This document shows positions 3,238 through 49,274 of a DNA stretch of 64,000 nucleotides, one piece after another (the first letter of the stretch is position 1; each line of letters starts with the position of its first letter). The stretch comes from an uncultured Alphaproteobacteria bacterium. Lineage in GTDB: Bacteria > Pseudomonadota > Alphaproteobacteria > HIMB59 > GCA-002718135. The translations under genes were made by a program, and so were the position numbers. The stretch is taken from the NCBI GenBank assembly GCA_902591485.1, contig CACJAV010000005.1:24468-88467 (forward strand), read 5' to 3'. The notes below the pieces were generated by a model, which saw only the letters and a program-made list of their open reading frames with translations, searched no databases and was not told where the DNA came from.

Positions 3238-3292
3238 ACATAATAGATAAATCACAAGTTATTTTTTTCCCCTTTAATGGTATAGTGTAAAT

Positions 3293-3380
3293 GGAAGGTT
3301 TGAGGGCGAATATATTGCTAATCCAGTCAGGTCTGAAAAGAAGCAGCTGTACCAATTCTATTCGGGTCTTATAACCTTCC
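3293..3380 (+). ncRNA. ffs: Bacterial small signal recognition particle RNA (4.5S-type)
   Basis: Core GTCAGGTCTGAAAAGAAGCAGCTG matches the SRP RNA apical helix/asymmetric loop; terminal stem GGAAGGTT (3293-3300)/AACCTTCC (3373-3380); located directly upstream of dnaX. Confidence 0.92.
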
Positions 3381-3389
3381 TTGAATATT

Positions 3390-8152: not shown

Positions 8153-8168
8153 AATCAAGCTTGTTTAT

Positions 8169-8441
8169 TTAATTATTACGAGACTCCAACAATTTTTTTT
8201 TGATCAGTGATAACCCACTTTCTTGTTTTGATTTATAGGACTCATCAAAAGCTTTTAAATGCCATCCACTCAGACGGCTTCTTAATAAGTCAATATTTTT
8301 TAACTTCCATTCATTTGTTGTATTTTCATCTTTCCAAGCTTTTTTATCATCACTTGATCTAGCACATCCATAGCAAAAACCACTAATAGGATCAGTTTTG
8401 CAGACGCTAATACATGGAGAAATAATATTTTGTTGACTCAT
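8169..8441 (-). CDS. DUF1289 family small Cys-rich protein
   Basis: SPCISVCKTDPISGFCYGCARS. Confidence 0.85.
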   Translation of the reverse strand: MSQQNIISPCISVCKTDPISGFCYGCARSSDDKKAWKDENTTNEWKLKNIDLLRSRLSGWHLKAFDESYKSKQESGLSLIKKKLLESRNN

Positions 8442-8492
8442 AAATATTTAATTATATTTTTTTTCCAATAATTCAATTACAATACTCTAATT

Positions 8493-11805: not shown

Positions 11806-11817
11806 CTCCAGTAAAAC

Positions 11818-11979
11818 CTAAATATAGAATTGATTATATTTGCCCTTTTGTTCAAGTTCCCGCATTCTTTGCTCTAAATCGTATGTATTAGCAGACTGAG
11901 AAAGATATTTTTCAATTTTTTCACGATCATGATCAAAAGTAAAGGATCTTAAAAAATTATTAAGCAGCTTTTTTATCAT
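11818..11979 (-). CDS. 53-aa small protein, DUF3563-like; absent from ORF track (<60 aa)
   Basis: Manual reverse translation MIKKLLNNFLRSFTFDHDREKIEKYLSQSANTYDLEQRMRELEQKGKYNQFYI*; SD-like AAGGAGAT just upstream; 'YLSQSxxxxDLEQRMRELE' resembles DUF3563. Confidence 0.7.
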   Translation of the reverse strand: MIKKLLNNFLRSFTFDHDREKIEKYLSQSANTYDLEQRMRELEQKGKYNQFYI

Positions 11980-12142
11980 TATTTATCTCCTTTTTGTATA
12001 AGTGCTCAGTTAAAGCTGATTGCCAATCTTTTCCGTATTCTGTTCTGAAATATCTGACTAACTGAGGATCAACATTATCAAAACCATAGTCATTTACAGC
12101 TTTGTAAGTAGAATTTATAAAATTTAATATATTTTTATACAT
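11960..12142 (-). CDS. 60-aa hypothetical small protein, overlaps the following small ORF by 20 nt
   Basis: SD-like AAAGGAAT upstream of ATG; protein ends NDKKAA; aromatic/charged core VRYFRTEYGKDWQSAL. Confidence 0.6.
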   Translation of the reverse strand: MYKNILNFINSTYKAVNDYGFDNVDPQLVRYFRTEYGKDWQSALTEHLYKKEINNDKKAA

Positions 12143-12209
12143 TTTTATTCCTTTCTAGTTGCTAATATAAGAATTAATATATGCAAATCAAACAAGTTAT
12201 ATACATAAA

Positions 12210-12232
12210 ATATATGCAATTTATGCATATAT
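12210..12232. promoter_or_regulatory. 9-5-9 inverted repeat ATATATGCA-ATTTA-TGCATATAT, candidate operator
   Basis: Perfect inverted repeat; extra direct half-site ATATATGCA at 12177-12185. Confidence 0.45.
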
Positions 12233-12305
12233 AAATATTTAATAAATTTCTAAAATTAGAAAAAAAGGATCTCGTTATTTTAAATAATGATTGTCTACTG
12301 AAATT

Positions 12306-12328
12306 AATCATACACTTAATGTATGATT
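12306..12328. promoter_or_regulatory. 9-5-9 inverted repeat AATCATACA-CTTAA-TGTATGATT, candidate operator or hairpin
   Basis: Perfect inverted repeat 20 bp upstream of the glycosyltransferase start codon. Confidence 0.45.
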
Positions 12329-12347
12329 CAAGATAATTAGTTTAGAA

Positions 12348-21110: not shown

Positions 21111-21944
21111 ATGCAAATAGTCAAAAAAATATCAGAAATAAGAGAAATATTGTCTGATTTAGACAAAAATAATTCAAAAATTAATCTTATTCCCACTATG
21201 GGAAATATACATGAGGGTCATTTGTCTCTTCTAAAAGAGGCAAATAAATATGAGGGTATAAATGTAGTTAGTATATTTATTAACCCCACCCAATTTAATG
21301 ATATTAAAGATTTTGAAAATTACCCAAATACCTTTGATCAAGACGTAAACTTGTTATCTAAAAATAATTGTGAAATTATTTTTGCACCTAATATAAATGA
21401 AATGTATCCCAATGGTCTTGAAACAAAAAAAACTATTTTTGAATACAGAGAAATTTTGTGTGATGTGTTTAGACCAGGTCATTTTGATGGGGTAACTACA
21501 GTTGTTAAAATGCTGCTAAACATTATAAAACCATCAAATGTTTTTCTTGGAGAAAAAGATTTTCAGCAATTAAAAATATTAGAAACATTAATCATTCAAA
21601 ATAAATTAAAAACAAATTTGGTTAAATGTTCATCAATTAGAAGTTCGAATGGGATGAGCTTATCGTCACGATATACTAAATTTAGCACAAAAGAAAAAAC
21701 TCAATTCGAAAAGTGTGCTCAAATCATAAACAAGAATTTATTAGATCTAATAAATTCATTTGATACTAAAATTCTTGAAAACATTAAAAAAGAATTACAA
21801 AGCATTGGAATTTCAAAAATTGATTATTGTGAAGTAAGAGAGGAAAATAATTTAGAAATTTCTAACACAAATATAAATTCTAGATTATTCTTGGCATTCT
21901 ATGTGAATGAGATAAGAATTATTGATAACTTTGTTTTGTATTAA
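21111..21944 (+). CDS. panC: Pantoate--beta-alanine ligase
   Basis: LIPTMGNIHEGHLSLLKEA, SIFINPTQFN, FLGEKDFQQL. Confidence 0.94.
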   Translation: MQIVKKISEIREILSDLDKNNSKINLIPTMGNIHEGHLSLLKEANKYEGINVVSIFINPTQFNDIKDFENYPNTFDQDVNLLSKNNCEIIFAPNINEMYPNGLETKKTIFEYREILCDVFRPGHFDGVTTVVKMLLNIIKPSNVFLGEKDFQQLKILETLIIQNKLKTNLVKCSSIRSSNGMSLSSRYTKFSTKEKTQFEKCAQIINKNLLDLINSFDTKILENIKKELQSIGISKIDYCEVREENNLEISNTNINSRLFLAFYVNEIRIIDNFVLY

Positions 21945-33276: not shown

Positions 33277-33301
33277 TATCTTTTAAATAGGTTATTACAT
33301 T

Positions 33302-33580
33302 ATGGTTAATAAAAGCAAAATTTTATCTGACTTATCAAAAATAGCTGTTGATGCAATGAGTACCTTTTCTAGTCTAAGAAAAGAAATTGAGACAATGGTC
33401 TCACTAAGAGTGAACAAGGTCATAAATAAAATGAATCTTGTAAAAAGAGATGAATTTGATGCACTGAAAAGATTGGTGCAAAAATCGATAATTGATAATG
33501 AAAAAACAAAAAAACCTAGAAAGAAAACTGTTACAAAAAAGAAAAAAACTATTTCTAGAAAAAAAAAGGCTAAAAACTAA
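33302..33580 (+). CDS. UbiK/BMFP family accessory protein with Lys/Arg-rich C-terminal tail
   Basis: Coiled-coil BMFP pattern (MVSLRVNKVINKMNLVKRDEFDALKRLVQK) plus KKPRKKTVTKKKKTISRKKKAKN tail. Confidence 0.75.
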   Translation: MVNKSKILSDLSKIAVDAMSTFSSLRKEIETMVSLRVNKVINKMNLVKRDEFDALKRLVQKSIIDNEKTKKPRKKTVTKKKKTISRKKKAKN

Positions 33581-33689
33581 CAATTATTCACATTTTTCCT
33601 CTTATTTTATTAATTTAACTTGCGAAACATCTCGTTTATTTAGTAAGACTATATCTAGTACTTAAATTAATTAAAATACTATATAAAGT

Positions 33690-42441: not shown

Positions 42442-42550
42442 TATTTAATTAATTTTCTAGATTATGCTCACAAATTATTATAGTCCAAAATTTGAATTTA
42501 AATAAATAAGTCTAAATAGATAACATAATATATTAATTGGAGATTTGAAG

Positions 42551-44320
42551 ATGGCTAAAATGACTACTGAGGAAGCTTTTGTAAAAGTTCTACAAATGCA
42601 CGGAATACAACATTCTTTTGGAATAATTGGATCAGCATTCATGCCAATTTCAGACCTTTTTCCAAAAGCAGGGATAACTTTTTGGGATGTTGCTCATGAG
42701 TCAAATGGTGGTCTTATTGCAGATGGTTACACAAGATCAACTGGTAAAATTGCAATGTGTATTGCTCAAAATGGACCGGGCATAACAGGTTTAGTAACAC
42801 CAATCAAAACAGCTTATTGGAATCATACTCCAATGCTTTTAGTGACACCGCAAGCTGCAAATAAAACAATGGGTCAGGGAGGTTTTCAAGAAGTAGAACA
42901 AATGAACTTATTTAAAGATATGGTTTGTTATCAAGAAGAAGTCCGGGATGCGTCTAGAATGGCAGAAGTATTAAACAGAGTTATATTAAAGGCAAAAAGA
43001 GGTTCAGCGCCAGCTCAAATAAATGTGCCTAGAGACTTTTGGACACAAGTAATAGATATTGAATTACCATCTATTATTGAATTTGAGAGACCATCTGGTG
43101 GCTCAACCGCAATAAGTGAAGCTGCAGATCTTTTATCTAATGCAAAATTCCCTGTAATATTATCAGGTGCTGGAGTTGTGCTTGCTGATGCGATTGAAGA
43201 TTGTAAAAACATAGCAGAAAAATTAGATGCACCTGTTGCATGCGGATACCAACATAACGATAGTTTTCCAGGAAAGCACCCTCTAGCTGTAGGTCCTCTT
43301 GGATACAATGGGTCTAAAGCTGCAATGGAGATTATTGCAAAAGCTGATGTCGTTTTAGCATTGGGAACAAGATTGAATCCTTTTTCTACACTTCCTGGTT
43401 ATGGAATAGATTATTGGCCCAAGGAAGCAAAGATTATTCAAGTTGATATAAATTCTGACAGAATAGGATTAGCAAAAAGAATAACAGTAGGAATTTGTGG
43501 AGATGCTAAATTAGTTGCAAAACAAATTTTAGGTGAATTATCTTCAAGTGCTGGAGATATTGGAAGAGAAGATAGAAAGGCTCTAATTCATCAAACCAAA
43601 TCTGCATGGCTTCAAACATTAACAAGTCTTGATCATGAAGAGGATGATGAAGGTACTACATGGAATAAAGACTCTCGTGAGAGAGATCCTGATAGAATGT
43701 CTCCTCGAATGGCGTGGAGAGCTATTCAAGCAGGCTTACCTGAAGATGCAATCATCTCGAGCGATATTGGGAATAATTGTGCAATTGGAAATGCTTACCC
43801 AACTTTTGAGCAAGGAAGAAAATATTTAGCTCCAGGTTTATTTGGGCCATGTGGTTATGGATTTCCTTCAGTATTAGGAGCTAAAATTGGATGTCCAGAC
43901 ACACCTGTTGTTGGTTTTTCAGGAGATGGAGCTTTTGGAATTAGCATGAGTGAAATGACATCATGTAGCCGAGAAGAATGGCCTAATATTACAATGGTTA
44001 TTTTCCGAAATTATCAATGGGGTGCGGAGAAAAGAAATACAACTCTTTGGTATGATAATAATTTTATTGGAACAGAGCTTGATCCAAAATTAAGTTATGC
44101 AAAAATTGCTGAAGCGTGTGGATTTAAAGGGGTTAAAGTAACAACCCAATCAGAATTAACTGAAGCTTTGAAGACATCATGTGTTGAACAAATGAATGGC
44201 ATTACAACTTTTATAGAAGTTATCTTAAATCAAGAATTAGGCGAGCCATTTAGAAGAGATGCAATGAAAGCACCTGTAGAAGTTGCTGGAATTAACAGTA
44301 AGGATACTGTCGTTCAATAA
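42551..44320 (+). CDS. xsc: Sulfoacetaldehyde acetyltransferase (TPP-dependent); first in-frame ATG at 42551
   Basis: FGIIGSAFMPISDLFPKAGI, HESNGGLIADGYTRSTG, GDGAFGISMSEMTSCSREEWPNITMVIFRNYQWGAEKRNTTLWYDNNF. Confidence 0.93.
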   Translation: MAKMTTEEAFVKVLQMHGIQHSFGIIGSAFMPISDLFPKAGITFWDVAHESNGGLIADGYTRSTGKIAMCIAQNGPGITGLVTPIKTAYWNHTPMLLVTPQAANKTMGQGGFQEVEQMNLFKDMVCYQEEVRDASRMAEVLNRVILKAKRGSAPAQINVPRDFWTQVIDIELPSIIEFERPSGGSTAISEAADLLSNAKFPVILSGAGVVLADAIEDCKNIAEKLDAPVACGYQHNDSFPGKHPLAVGPLGYNGSKAAMEIIAKADVVLALGTRLNPFSTLPGYGIDYWPKEAKIIQVDINSDRIGLAKRITVGICGDAKLVAKQILGELSSSAGDIGREDRKALIHQTKSAWLQTLTSLDHEEDDEGTTWNKDSRERDPDRMSPRMAWRAIQAGLPEDAIISSDIGNNCAIGNAYPTFEQGRKYLAPGLFGPCGYGFPSVLGAKIGCPDTPVVGFSGDGAFGISMSEMTSCSREEWPNITMVIFRNYQWGAEKRNTTLWYDNNFIGTELDPKLSYAKIAEACGFKGVKVTTQSELTEALKTSCVEQMNGITTFIEVILNQELGEPFRRDAMKAPVEVAGINSKDTVVQ

Positions 44321-44322
44321 AC

Positions 44323-45924
44323 TTATTGATCACCAATAATCAAATCTGCTGCTTTTTCAGCAATCATAATTGTTGGGGCGTTTGTATTACCTGAAGTAAT
44401 GTTCGGCATAATCGATGCATCAACAACTCTCAAATTTTCAATACCATGAACTTTAAGCTTATCACTAACTACGGAGGTGCTGTCACTTCCCATCTTACAA
44501 GTTCCAACAGGATGAAAAATTGTTTGAACATGTTCACTTGAAGCTTGTATAATTTCTTCATCACTTTGATAATTTATACCTGGTCTAAACTCTTCTGGTT
44601 GATATTTTTTGAATGTTTCACTCTCAAAAATAATTTTTCTTATCAATCTAATACCTGCAGCTGATACTTGGCGATCATCTTCAGTTGAAAGATAATTCAT
44701 TTTTATTTTTGGATAATCTCTAGAGTCGCTTGAGATTATATATACTTCTCCTCTACTAGTTGGCCTTATATTTGCAACAGTTGGAGTAAAGGCATTAAAC
44801 TTATGCAGACTGGCACCTCCTAATCGGTCAGTGCTAATAGGCTGAACATGAAATTGTAAATTTGGTGTTTCCCTACTTTCATCACTTTTAGCAAAACCAC
44901 AAAGTTGACTTGCCCCCATCGTCATTACACCTCTTCTGAAAAAAACAAATTCCATACCAATCATCATTTTTCCAAAAAAACTGTTTATAGTTTTGTTCAG
45001 TGTTTTGATGTTTTTAACTTTATAAACAGGCCGTAACATCAGATGATCTTGTAAGTTTTGCCCAACGCTTGAGTTATGATGTTTTACGGATATTCCTAAA
45101 CTTCCAAGTTTTTTCTCATCACCAATTCCAGATACTTGAAGAATATGAGGAGAACCAATTGATCCAGCAGATAAAATAACTTCTTTATTTGCCTTTACGG
45201 TGATTAACTCATTATCTCTCCAATAAGAAATACCAATTGCTTTTTTTCCTTCAAAATTAATTTTATTAACATGTGCTTTTACTTCAACTTTTAAGTTTGA
45301 TCTTTTTTTTGCAGGATTAAGATATGCAACAGCAGTACTGCAACGTAAACCATTTTTTTCTGTAACTTGAAAATAATCACAACCAAAATTATCTCCAGTA
45401 TTAAAGTCCTTAATTTTGGGAATCCCAATTTCTTCTGCAGCGTTTTGAAATTCATCCAAAATATCGAGTTTAATTCGAATGTCTGATACTGATAAAGGGC
45501 CTCCAACACCATGAAACTTATTTGCTCCTCTTTCTTGGTTTTCTGATTTGATGAAATAGGGTAGAACATCCTCCCAACCCCATCCAGAATTTCCTTGTTG
45601 ACGCCAAATATCATAATCTTTTGATTGCCCTCTGATATATAAAAGGCCATTTATAGAAGAACTGCCCCCTAATGTTTTGCCTCGAGGGTAATTAATTGAC
45701 CTGCCATTAATTGACTCATCAGGTTCAGTTTTAAAGCACCAATCTGTTTTAGGATTGTGCATGGTTTTATAATATCCTACAGGAATATGAATCCAAGGGT
45801 AACTATCTTTGCCACCTGCTTCAATTAAAAGAACTGATGTATTAGGGTTATTTGTTAATCGATTTGCCAAAACACAACCTGCTGAACCTGCGCCAACAAT
45901 AATATAATCAAAACTATTATTCAT
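44323..45924 (-). CDS. GMC-family FAD-dependent alcohol dehydrogenase; candidate isethionate dehydrogenase (IseJ-like)
   Basis: YIIVGAGSAGCVLANRLT, NYPRGKTLGGSSSINGLLYIRGQ, HPVGTCKMGSDSTSVV; adjacent xsc and TRAP transporter. Confidence 0.85.
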   Translation of the reverse strand: MNNSFDYIIVGAGSAGCVLANRLTNNPNTSVLLIEAGGKDSYPWIHIPVGYYKTMHNPKTDWCFKTEPDESINGRSINYPRGKTLGGSSSINGLLYIRGQSKDYDIWRQQGNSGWGWEDVLPYFIKSENQERGANKFHGVGGPLSVSDIRIKLDILDEFQNAAEEIGIPKIKDFNTGDNFGCDYFQVTEKNGLRCSTAVAYLNPAKKRSNLKVEVKAHVNKINFEGKKAIGISYWRDNELITVKANKEVILSAGSIGSPHILQVSGIGDEKKLGSLGISVKHHNSSVGQNLQDHLMLRPVYKVKNIKTLNKTINSFFGKMMIGMEFVFFRRGVMTMGASQLCGFAKSDESRETPNLQFHVQPISTDRLGGASLHKFNAFTPTVANIRPTSRGEVYIISSDSRDYPKIKMNYLSTEDDRQVSAAGIRLIRKIIFESETFKKYQPEEFRPGINYQSDEEIIQASSEHVQTIFHPVGTCKMGSDSTSVVSDKLKVHGIENLRVVDASIMPNITSGNTNAPTIMIAEKAADLIIGDQ

Positions 45925-46119
45925 TTATTTTGGAAAGCTTAATTAACATCTTATTTTATTTAACTTTTCACTTTATTATTGATTAAATTGAGATAGCTCA
46001 ACTAATTAAAAATTAAGTTTGAAATAATTTTTATTTTTTTATATTTTTATATAAAATTTATTTTTTAATTTTATCCAGTAAAATCAATATTTTTTAATAA
46101 TTATTTTTAATAATATCTT

Positions 46120-46135
46120 TGTAAAACGTTTTACA
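46120..46135. promoter_or_regulatory. Perfect 16-bp palindrome TGTAAAACGTTTTACA, LacI-family-type operator candidate
   Basis: Read directly; central CG with AAAA/TTTT flanks; 38 bp upstream of TRAP substrate-binding protein ATG. Confidence 0.6.
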
Positions 46136-46172
46136 CATGTTAAGTTTTTTACACAATTTTTCGGGAGGAAAT

Positions 46173-47273
46173 ATGAAAAAAATATTAACAATAATTTTAG
46201 GTTCAGTCTTAGTTTTAGGATTTATGACTGTATCAGCCAAAGCTGCAAAGACACTAAAGTGCCAAACAGTTTTAAATGCTAAAAGTGATGAAGCACGCTT
46301 ATTAAAAGAAGAATTTACAGATAGAGTGACAGAGTTAACTGGCGGTTCTTTGAATTTTGAAATTTTGCCAGCAGGTACAGTTGTTGGAGGCAAAGAAACA
46401 CTTGATGCAATCGATAAAGGTCTAATTGATTGTGGATTTGCTTGGACTCACTATTGGTCAGGAGAGCATCCAGCAGCAATGCTATTTGGTTCGCCAGTTG
46501 CAGGCGGAGGTGTAGGAATTGATAACCTTGCTTTTTTATCTTGGTTTAATGCAGCAGGTGGAAAAGAATTATATGAACAACTTTGGAATGAGATGGGAAG
46601 AGACATAAAAGGATTTATGCTTCAACCTGTTGGACCAGAAGCTCTTGGTTGGTTTAAAGAACCAATCACTAGTATGGAAGATTTTAGAAAATATCGTTTT
46701 AGAACACCTCCAGGAATACCGGGTCAAACATATAAAGATATTGGTATTGCGTCAGTAGCAATGGGTGGAGGTGACATACTTCCTGCACTTGAAGCTGGTA
46801 CTATTGATGCTGCTGAATGGTGCTGTCCAAAACCTGATAGTGTGTTTGGTTTTCAAAAAGTATTAAAGCACTATTATCTTCAAGGTTTACACCAAGTTGT
46901 TGTAAATGCAGACTTTTATATGAATGGTACACTTTATGATAGTTTAACTGATCATGAAAAAGCCTCTCTTCAGGTGGCAGCTGATGCATCTTTGATGCTA
47001 ACTTTATCTGATAGAATATATGAAAATGGTAAAGCACTTAGAATGTTAACAGAAGAAGCGGGTGTTATACTGCATGATACACCAACAGATTATTTTTCTG
47101 AATACATGGCAGCAGCTTTAGCTACACTAAATAAGAACGCTGAAGAAAATGAATTCTTTAATGAGGTTTATACTTCTATGAAAGAATTTGCTGATATTGC
47201 AGTACCATTCTGGAGTGGAGCTCAAATGTCTAATGCTAAGTTAGGTATGGCTCACGCTGCAACACTTAAATAA
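46173..47273 (+). CDS. TRAP transporter substrate-binding protein (DctP family); start at 46173 with SD GGGAGG
   Basis: Signal peptide MKKILTIILGSVLVLGFMTVSAKAA; DctP-fold sequence (EFTDRVTELTGGSLNFEILPAGTVVGGKE...). Confidence 0.9.
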   Translation: MKKILTIILGSVLVLGFMTVSAKAAKTLKCQTVLNAKSDEARLLKEEFTDRVTELTGGSLNFEILPAGTVVGGKETLDAIDKGLIDCGFAWTHYWSGEHPAAMLFGSPVAGGGVGIDNLAFLSWFNAAGGKELYEQLWNEMGRDIKGFMLQPVGPEALGWFKEPITSMEDFRKYRFRTPPGIPGQTYKDIGIASVAMGGGDILPALEAGTIDAAEWCCPKPDSVFGFQKVLKHYYLQGLHQVVVNADFYMNGTLYDSLTDHEKASLQVAADASLMLTLSDRIYENGKALRMLTEEAGVILHDTPTDYFSEYMAAALATLNKNAEENEFFNEVYTSMKEFADIAVPFWSGAQMSNAKLGMAHAATLK

Positions 47274-47331: not shown

Positions 47332-47943
47332 ATGTCAGATAATATTCAAGATTACGATTTAAAGGATGAGTTAATCGCTGAGAGAAAAGTAGGCTATTTT
47401 GAACAACCATCTGACATGGCAAATTGGATTTACAAAACTATTATCAACATTGATAAATTTAGTTTGCTGGTGGGAAAAACTATTTGCTGGATAACTGTTC
47501 CATTATTTTTATGTATGGCATATGAGGTTGTAGCAAGAAAATTTTTTCTCTCACCCACATACTGGGCCTACGACATGAGTAGATTTTTTTATGGTGCGAT
47601 GTTTATGATTGGTTCGGGATATGCTCTATCAAGAGGTGTACATATAAGAGCAGATTTTTTATATCGTAATTTTAAAACAAAAACGCAAGGCTTTGTCGAT
47701 TTTTGGTTATATTTATTTTTTTACTTTCCTGGACTTTTCTTTTGTTTGTATATGACTACAATATTTGTCATTGAGTCAATGCAGCGTGGGGAAAAGGGAA
47801 TGGACACAGCTTGGATGCCTTACCTATGGCCAATAAAATCATGTTTATGGATTGGTATAGTTTTTTTACTTATACAAGGATTATCTGAATTATTGAAAAG
47901 TCACTACGCTATGAAAAATGGTAAATGGCCGGGTGATGAATGA
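47332..47943 (+). CDS. TRAP transporter small permease (DctQ)
   Basis: Four-TM small permease (CMAYEVVARKFFLSPTYWAYDMSRFFYGAMFMIGSGYAL) between DctP and DctM. Confidence 0.9.
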   Translation: MSDNIQDYDLKDELIAERKVGYFEQPSDMANWIYKTIINIDKFSLLVGKTICWITVPLFLCMAYEVVARKFFLSPTYWAYDMSRFFYGAMFMIGSGYALSRGVHIRADFLYRNFKTKTQGFVDFWLYLFFYFPGLFFCLYMTTIFVIESMQRGEKGMDTAWMPYLWPIKSCLWIGIVFLLIQGLSELLKSHYAMKNGKWPGDE

Positions 47944-49274
47944 TTGCAGAATTTATTAGTCCAGAAATTTTAGGAATATTTTTAATAGCAGTAATGCTAT
48001 TTTCTATCTTTGTTGGTTTCCCCATTTCCTTTACTTTAATTTTTTTAGGATTTGTCTTTGGTTATCTCGGATTTGGAAAATTAGTTTTTTATTTAATGAC
48101 ATTGCAGTTTTCAATGGTAATGACTGAACAAACCCTAGCTGCCGTTCCACTGTTTGTCTTTATGGGGATTATGATGGAACAAGCAGGTTTAATGGAAAGA
48201 TTGTTTTCCTCAGTACAGATGATGCTTTCCAGGGTTCGCGGATCTCTTTTCTATGCAGTTCTTTTTGTGTCTATAATTTTTGCTGCTGCCACAGGTATTG
48301 TTGGAGCATCAGTTACAATATTGGGAATTATGGCAGCAAAATCAATGAATAGATCAGGGTATGATGTTAGGTTAGCTGCTGGAACCATAACTGCAGGAGG
48401 AACTCTTGGAATTTTAATTCCACCAAGTATTATGCTTGTTGTAATGGGTCCTATTATGGAGATTCCTGTTACAGATCTTTTTGCAGCAGCTATCATTCCT
48501 GGAATTATGCTAGCAGTTTTATATGCTGGTTACGCAACTATAAGATGTTACTTAGATCCTTCACTCGGACCAGTTGTTCCAGAAGAAGATAGGGAAAAGA
48601 ATATAAGGGTTGTTCTTTATGAATTTTTTATGGGTTTAGTTCCGCCAGCATTATTAGTTTTCTCAGCACTTGGAAGTATTTTGTTTGGTCTTGCAACACC
48701 AACTGAAGCTGCTGGTTGCGGTGCTCTCGGGGCTATTTTATTAGCATTAGCATATCGTAAGCTGACTTTAGAAAAATTAAAAGATGGACTAATTAAAACC
48801 TTAGAGATTACTGCCTTAATAATGTTGTTAGTAGCAGCTTCTAATTTTTTTGGAGCTGTTTTTGCTAGATTAGGGACTCCATCAATGATTACTGATTTCT
48901 TATTAAGCTTAGAGGTTAATAGATATTTAATTTTACTTATTGTAATGGCCATGATTTTTCTTTTAGGCTGGCCTTTAGAGTGGGTACCAATTGTTTTAAT
49001 TGTTGTGCCTATTATTTTACCTCTTATCGAAGGCTTAGGTTTTAACCTCATTTGGTTTGCCATTCTAGTTGCAGTAAACTTGCAGACAGCCTGGCTGTCT
49101 CCACCAGTTGCTTTATCTGCATACTTTTTAAAAGGTGTAGTGCCTGAGTGGGATTTAAAAGATATTTATATAGGGATGATGCAATTTATGGTTCTACAAG
49201 TAATAGGTCTACTTTTAATTATTATTTTTCCGCAAATTGCTTTATGGCTTCCGCACTATATTTACGGTAGTTAG
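47940..49274 (+). CDS. TRAP transporter large permease (DctM)
   Basis: AATGIVGASVTILGIMAAKSMNRSGYD, AGGTLGILIPPSIMLVV, TPTEAAGCGALGA. Confidence 0.94.
   Translation: MIAEFISPEILGIFLIAVMLFSIFVGFPISFTLIFLGFVFGYLGFGKLVFYLMTLQFSMVMTEQTLAAVPLFVFMGIMMEQAGLMERLFSSVQMMLSRVRGSLFYAVLFVSIIFAAATGIVGASVTILGIMAAKSMNRSGYDVRLAAGTITAGGTLGILIPPSIMLVVMGPIMEIPVTDLFAAAIIPGIMLAVLYAGYATIRCYLDPSLGPVVPEEDREKNIRVVLYEFFMGLVPPALLVFSALGSILFGLATPTEAAGCGALGAILLALAYRKLTLEKLKDGLIKTLEITALIMLLVAASNFFGAVFARLGTPSMITDFLLSLEVNRYLILLIVMAMIFLLGWPLEWVPIVLIVVPIILPLIEGLGFNLIWFAILVAVNLQTAWLSPPVALSAYFLKGVVPEWDLKDIYIGMMQFMVLQVIGLLLIIIFPQIALWLPHYIYGS

Follow-up and report, generated by a model that had tools for sequence, protein, structure and literature searches.

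The perfect 16-bp palindrome TGTAAAACGTTTTACA, which lies upstream of a TRAP transporter operon in the 64,000-nucleotide stretch of alphaproteobacterial DNA analysed here (the window), is predicted to be a LacI/GalR-family operator, most likely read by an ortholog of one LacI clade, LacI-D, a reading to which we assign a probability of roughly 0.7. That the palindrome is a LacI-type operator, whichever LacI reads it, appears very probable. A repressor site of this family is indicated because in relatives a LacI repressor gene of one kind is preceded by the identical sequence. In this reading a LacI-type dimer, for which the LacI-D ortholog (L138 and relatives) is the likeliest candidate, would bind the 14-bp core GTAAAACGTTTTAC as a repressor and, once bound, would cover the -35 element of the TRAP promoter together with its spacer, thereby blocking RNA polymerase; in the presence of a small-molecule effector the repressor would be released and the transporter operon made. 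We infer all of binding, repression rather than activation, the identity of the effector and the promoter assignment. The mechanism is that of a standard LacI operator, an ordinary type of switch; its unusual part is the apparent link, here predicted, to a sugar/inositol-type regulator.

The palindrome is situated in a 248-bp spacer flanked by divergent GMC oxidoreductase and TRAP genes, and 37 bp separate its end from the start codon (ATG) of the TRAP solute-binding protein gene (Table 1). The preliminary description had reported such a palindrome with a CG core at this place, and it is present; the spacer is not the largest of the window as had been supposed, bigger gaps between listed ORFs (100 aa or longer) being found at 11806-12347, 33277-33689 and 8153-8492. 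Of 80 related loci, most of them from SAR11-type genomes, essentially all have the GMC and TRAP genes in this divergent arrangement. Xsc, a GMC-type dehydrogenase and a TRAP transporter are encoded together, a combination that resembles isethionate clusters, in which IseJ is likewise a GMC enzyme. The TRAP operon is probably a sulfonate importer. In a search for the substrate among solved structures, keto-acid and lactate binders were among the proteins closest to the solute-binding protein, which did not fix the substrate. The window further encodes CysD and a HisD-type dehydrogenase. Its sole Rfam match is a bacterial small SRP RNA (3291-3385), and no structured RNA was matched by Rfam in the TRAP spacer. 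Another perfect palindrome, of 24 bp and longer than expected by chance (GAATTTATTAGATCTAATAAATTC, 21734-21757), lies inside an ORF (21111-21944, + strand).

Table 1. Features of the TRAP locus and of the window edge (positions in the window)
Feature	Coordinates	Strand	Basis or remark
Sulfoacetaldehyde acetyltransferase Xsc	42545..44320	+	TIGR03457 and NF005713 above cut-off
GMC oxidoreductase (choline-dehydrogenase-like)	44323..45924	-	divergent from TRAP
Invariant 18-bp block TCTTTGTAAAACGTTTTA	46116..46133	+	six congeneric TRAP spacers aligned
Putative -35 of the TRAP operon, TTGTAA	46119..46124	+	inferred; overlapped by operator
Predicted LacI-type operator, core GTAAAACGTTTTAC (14 bp)	46120..46135		palindrome; same core upstream of LacI-D genes
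Putative extended -10, TG-T-TAAGTT	46138..46146	+	inferred; TGnTA(A/G) in 9/9 congeneric orthologs
Shine-Dalgarno GGGAGG of the TRAP solute-binding protein gene	46163..46168	+	invariant in six-spacer alignment
TRAP solute-binding protein (DctP type)	46173..47273	+	keto-acid and lactate binders among the closest solved structures
TRAP small permease	47332..47943	+	DctQ position, same place in related loci; no NCBIfam hit
TRAP large permease DctM	47940..49274	+	TIGR00786 above cut-off
LacI-A C-terminus, cut by contig end	63852..64000	-	LacI-A of G065: 79% identity across 48 residues

The exact core GTAAAACGTTTTAC is found at 37 sites in 35 of 102 congeneric genomes, against 3 sites for the reversed-pattern control. 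Most of these sites (32/37) are found no more than about 100 bp upstream of a LacI-D start. Three others are at the TRAP promoter, in G000 (the assembly of the present window, 83% complete), G060 and G065, and the remaining two precede an ABC-type binding protein gene (G038 L198:35, G077 L226:6086) that is probably a further LacI-D target; in G077 this gene is divergent from a 460-aa gene. LacI-D is present in 33 of the 35 genomes with the 14-mer, an association that is largely built in, most sites being at LacI-D itself. The LacI-D genes are preceded by AGTAAAACGTTTTACT or AGTGAAACGTTTTACT, the core of which equals that of the TRAP site at 14/14 bases. The LacI/GalR operator reading earlier given to the palindrome on its form is supported, since throughout the genus one LacI clade has a promoter palindrome with the identical core. 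The sequence GTAAAACGCTTTAC also occurs between ugpB and glpD in G000, G058 and G060.

The relationship between site and regulator could be followed at an independent promoter. In G043, G057, G058 and G060 the core, as GTAAAACGTTTTAT, is also present in front of a gene for an ABC binding protein of the inositol/rhizopine type, in its promoter; this gene is unlinked to TRAP and adjoins iolD in three of these four genomes. Among the 23 genomes having that binding protein, the core lies upstream of its gene in 4/4 with LacI-D and in 1/19 without it (Fisher P ~6e-4, calculated by hand with shared ancestry ignored), the lone LacI-D-negative genome with the core being the 53% complete G003. The core motif follows the presence of LacI-D at this promoter, and such co-occurrence lends the reading as a LacI-family operator further support.

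Near-identical TRAP proteins (96-100%) are encoded by nine of the 102 congeneric genomes, G000 included. The palindrome precedes the TRAP gene in six of them, being perfect in G000 and G060, in the form TGTAAAACGTTTTACG in G065 and in the form TGTAAAACGTTTTATT in G053, G057 and G058, so that the outermost bases are changed in four of the six conserved copies. LacI-D was found in G057, G058 and G060 and partly in G053, that is, in 4/6 TRAP carriers with the palindrome and 0/3 without it, numbers too small, and genomes too closely related, for significance alone. In several genomes it lies between an aldo/keto reductase gene and an IolE-like gene (L220 in G060, L222 in G057), and in G057 an ABC operon adjoins it; at the corresponding spot in G001 it is cleanly absent. 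It was not found in the G000 assembly, from which mlaA, a neighbour of the LacI-D locus, is likewise missing, and it is therefore plausible that the locus falls in an assembly gap and that G000 has a LacI-D ortholog in its unassembled part. In G065 (85% complete) the syntenic locus is assembled (L234) and LacI-D is cleanly absent, the core of the TRAP site being intact; this site may be read by a LacI-D copy elsewhere or by another LacI, or may be a relic. The absence of LacI-D from the G000 assembly and from this locus of G065 tells against the favoured reading, as do the outermost bases changed in four copies.

The site in G065 and G000, both of which have LacI-A and LacI-C and no detectable LacI-D, also favours the idea that the operator is read by a LacI other than LacI-D, be it LacI-C, a paralog that escaped notice, or LacI-A, which lies 17.7 kb downstream and closer to the TRAP operon than any other LacI gene. 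When the LacI-type (PF00356) genes of ten genomes were sorted into clades, however, the palindromes upstream of them were found to differ by clade: LacI-A genes are preceded by TGAATAATTATTCA-like palindromes and LacI-C genes by CCAAAACGTTTTGG, at times doubled. Moreover, LacI-A is also present in G001, G007 and G008, the TRAP promoters of which are without the site. We hence consider a reader outside LacI-D to be rather unlikely, though it is the foremost of the alternatives. The LacI C-terminus noted earlier at the window edge does belong to such a gene, matching the C-terminus of a relative's LacI-A (Table 1); its tentative link to the site is not supported, as the motif upstream of LacI-A differs and LacI-A is equally common where the TRAP site is missing, and we do not favour it as the regulator. 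The survey of clades also furnished two further observations. Upstream of the LacI-C genes L151, L156 and L157 (G000 C4, G058 C1 and G060 C1), which are divergent from an ABC transporter operon, the palindromes TCCAAAACGTTTTGGA and ACCAAAACGTTTTGGT, both perfect, stand 24 bp apart. One LacI-type gene of G000 (L158, a LacI-HTH gene on C1, ~168449-168583) has its start codon directly 3' of the perfect palindrome ACGAAATCGATTTCGT, and a bound regulator would therefore cover its own translation start region.

IseR, the regulator in isethionate clusters, is of the IclR type. The assemblage of xsc, GMC and TRAP genes resembles those clusters, and in R. pomeroyi iseR adjoins iseMLK-iseJ (PMC4334477); a conserved binding site for a regulator of another family, such as an IclR-type protein like IseR, might accordingly be envisaged. 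It is nevertheless improbable, since the core is the same as the LacI-D palindrome and has the CG-centred, even-length form typical of LacI operators, and since no iseR-like or other regulator gene was found among the immediate TRAP neighbours in the window and in the related loci inspected. The present locus shares with the IseR/iseKLM/iseJ clusters the TRAP operon and GMC-type dehydrogenase, here with xsc nearby, and differs from them in lacking an iseR-like neighbour and in having a LacI-shaped operator (PMC4334477).

Palindrome shape alone is weak evidence in DNA of this composition (30.7% G+C), and the significance of the site comes from its conservation. A dinucleotide model predicts 3.4 perfect palindromes of 16 bp or longer in every 64 kb; the chance of finding one in such a spacer is about 7%, or 0.16% if a CG core is required. 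In the alignment of the six congeneric TRAP spacers with the palindrome, the longest invariant run is TCTTTGTAAAACGTTTTA, which was matched by 0 of 20,000 column shuffles, and whole-spacer identity between lineages is just 62-70%. Conservation upstream of orthologous TRAP genes, on which the preliminary description had made its interpretation hinge, is clade-limited: it holds for the six of nine congeneric orthologs and breaks down in the spacers of G001, G007 and G008, where the palindrome is absent and just TTGTAAA is kept, and in 75 more distant SAR11-type TRAP orthologs, where the promoters differ and every match to the 12-bp core has two or more mismatches. Conservation of the site across SAR11-type orthologs was accordingly rejected. 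Many of the latter (L022-L082) have another conserved block upstream of the TRAP gene, TTGTCACTTGT(G/A)TCA...TTTTTCTGATTG...GTTAAATTTAACTAAC, which contains the palindrome GTTAAATTTAAC.

All nine congeneric orthologs, those without the palindrome included, share the arrangement TTGTAA-N16-TA(A/G) with TG ahead of the second hexamer, plausibly an extended -10 promoter. The operator spans the first hexamer and most of the putative promoter spacer. The competing assignment TTTACA-N16-CACAAT was discarded; its transcription start would fall beside or within the Shine-Dalgarno sequence and it is not kept in G065, and for these reasons TTGTAA-N16-TAAGTT is preferred. Joint control of the GMC and TRAP genes, proposed earlier from their divergent arrangement, is not favoured, the site overlapping the TRAP-side promoter only and the GMC gene starting some 195 bp away from it. 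The partial arm repeat described downstream is there (TTTTACAC, 46147-46154, 18 bp on) and is not kept in relatives. A chance palindrome, with the conserved block merely reflecting the promoter -35, is very improbable: perfect 16-bp palindromes are as common as calculated above and TTGTAA is kept even where the palindrome is not, but the nine bases beyond it (AACGTTTTA) are invariant as well, and an exact 14-mer in such a spacer has a probability below 1e-5 at the control rate (3 per ~1.3e8 bp).

The predicted LacI operator appears to have few companions in its own genome. The exact 16-mer is a single copy in the 1.43-Mb G000 assembly, and with up to three mismatches it has one match in the window (0.95 expected from shuffling). 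The genome-wide scan for variants that had been suggested returned 19 with up to three mismatches in G000 against 39 for the reversed pattern; since there is no excess, any regulon must be small. A genome-wide regulon in G000 was thus rejected, several of the near matches inspected lying within coding genes.

Published rules for LacI operators describe an even palindrome that is centred on CG and precedes the start codon by 30-140 bp (PMC4052901), and the present site agrees with them in length, centre and distance. It is in these respects like the operators of local LacI-family sugar regulons in proteobacteria, which it also resembles in that the regulator has an operator of its own and adjoins an ABC transporter operon; unlike those regulons, an extra target is present here, a sulfonate-type TRAP operon in one clade (PMC4052901). 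The same 12-bp core, TAAAACGTTTTA, with its CG centre, is found in the consensus TGATAAAACGTTTTATCA of the Bifidobacterium RbsR2/RbsR3 regulons, likewise of the LacI family, which differ in the outer bases, the phylum and the regulated genes (PMC4746261). In a full-text literature search neither the 14-mer nor the 16-mer was printed anywhere; the 12-bp core alone was matched, in unrelated work including this Bifidobacterium RbsR motif. A precedent, by annotation, is HpsR, a LacI-family regulator annotated beside the DHPS TRAP operon hpsKLM-hpsNOP of Ruegeria pomeroyi, likewise a marine alphaproteobacterium in which a LacI-family regulator is paired with a TRAP transporter for a sulfonate (PMC4334477). 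HpsR is encoded next to its operon, whereas here no regulator adjoins the operon and LacI-D, the best candidate, belongs to a locus of the sugar/inositol type.

A further possibility, which we advance tentatively and hold to be somewhat less than even, is that in one clade of streamlined marine alphaproteobacteria a sugar/inositol-type LacI captured a sulfonate TRAP operon, and that in some relatives, G065 among them, the operator outlived its regulator. Transcription factors are few in streamlined ocean bacteria, in which, to our knowledge, the control of sulfonate uptake is poorly understood. If such a capture took place, organosulfonate uptake would be switched by a carbohydrate signal. As the likely regulator can be named from comparison, a testable prediction follows, namely that sulfonate import in these bacteria may be tied to the sensing of carbohydrates (inositol or sugar).
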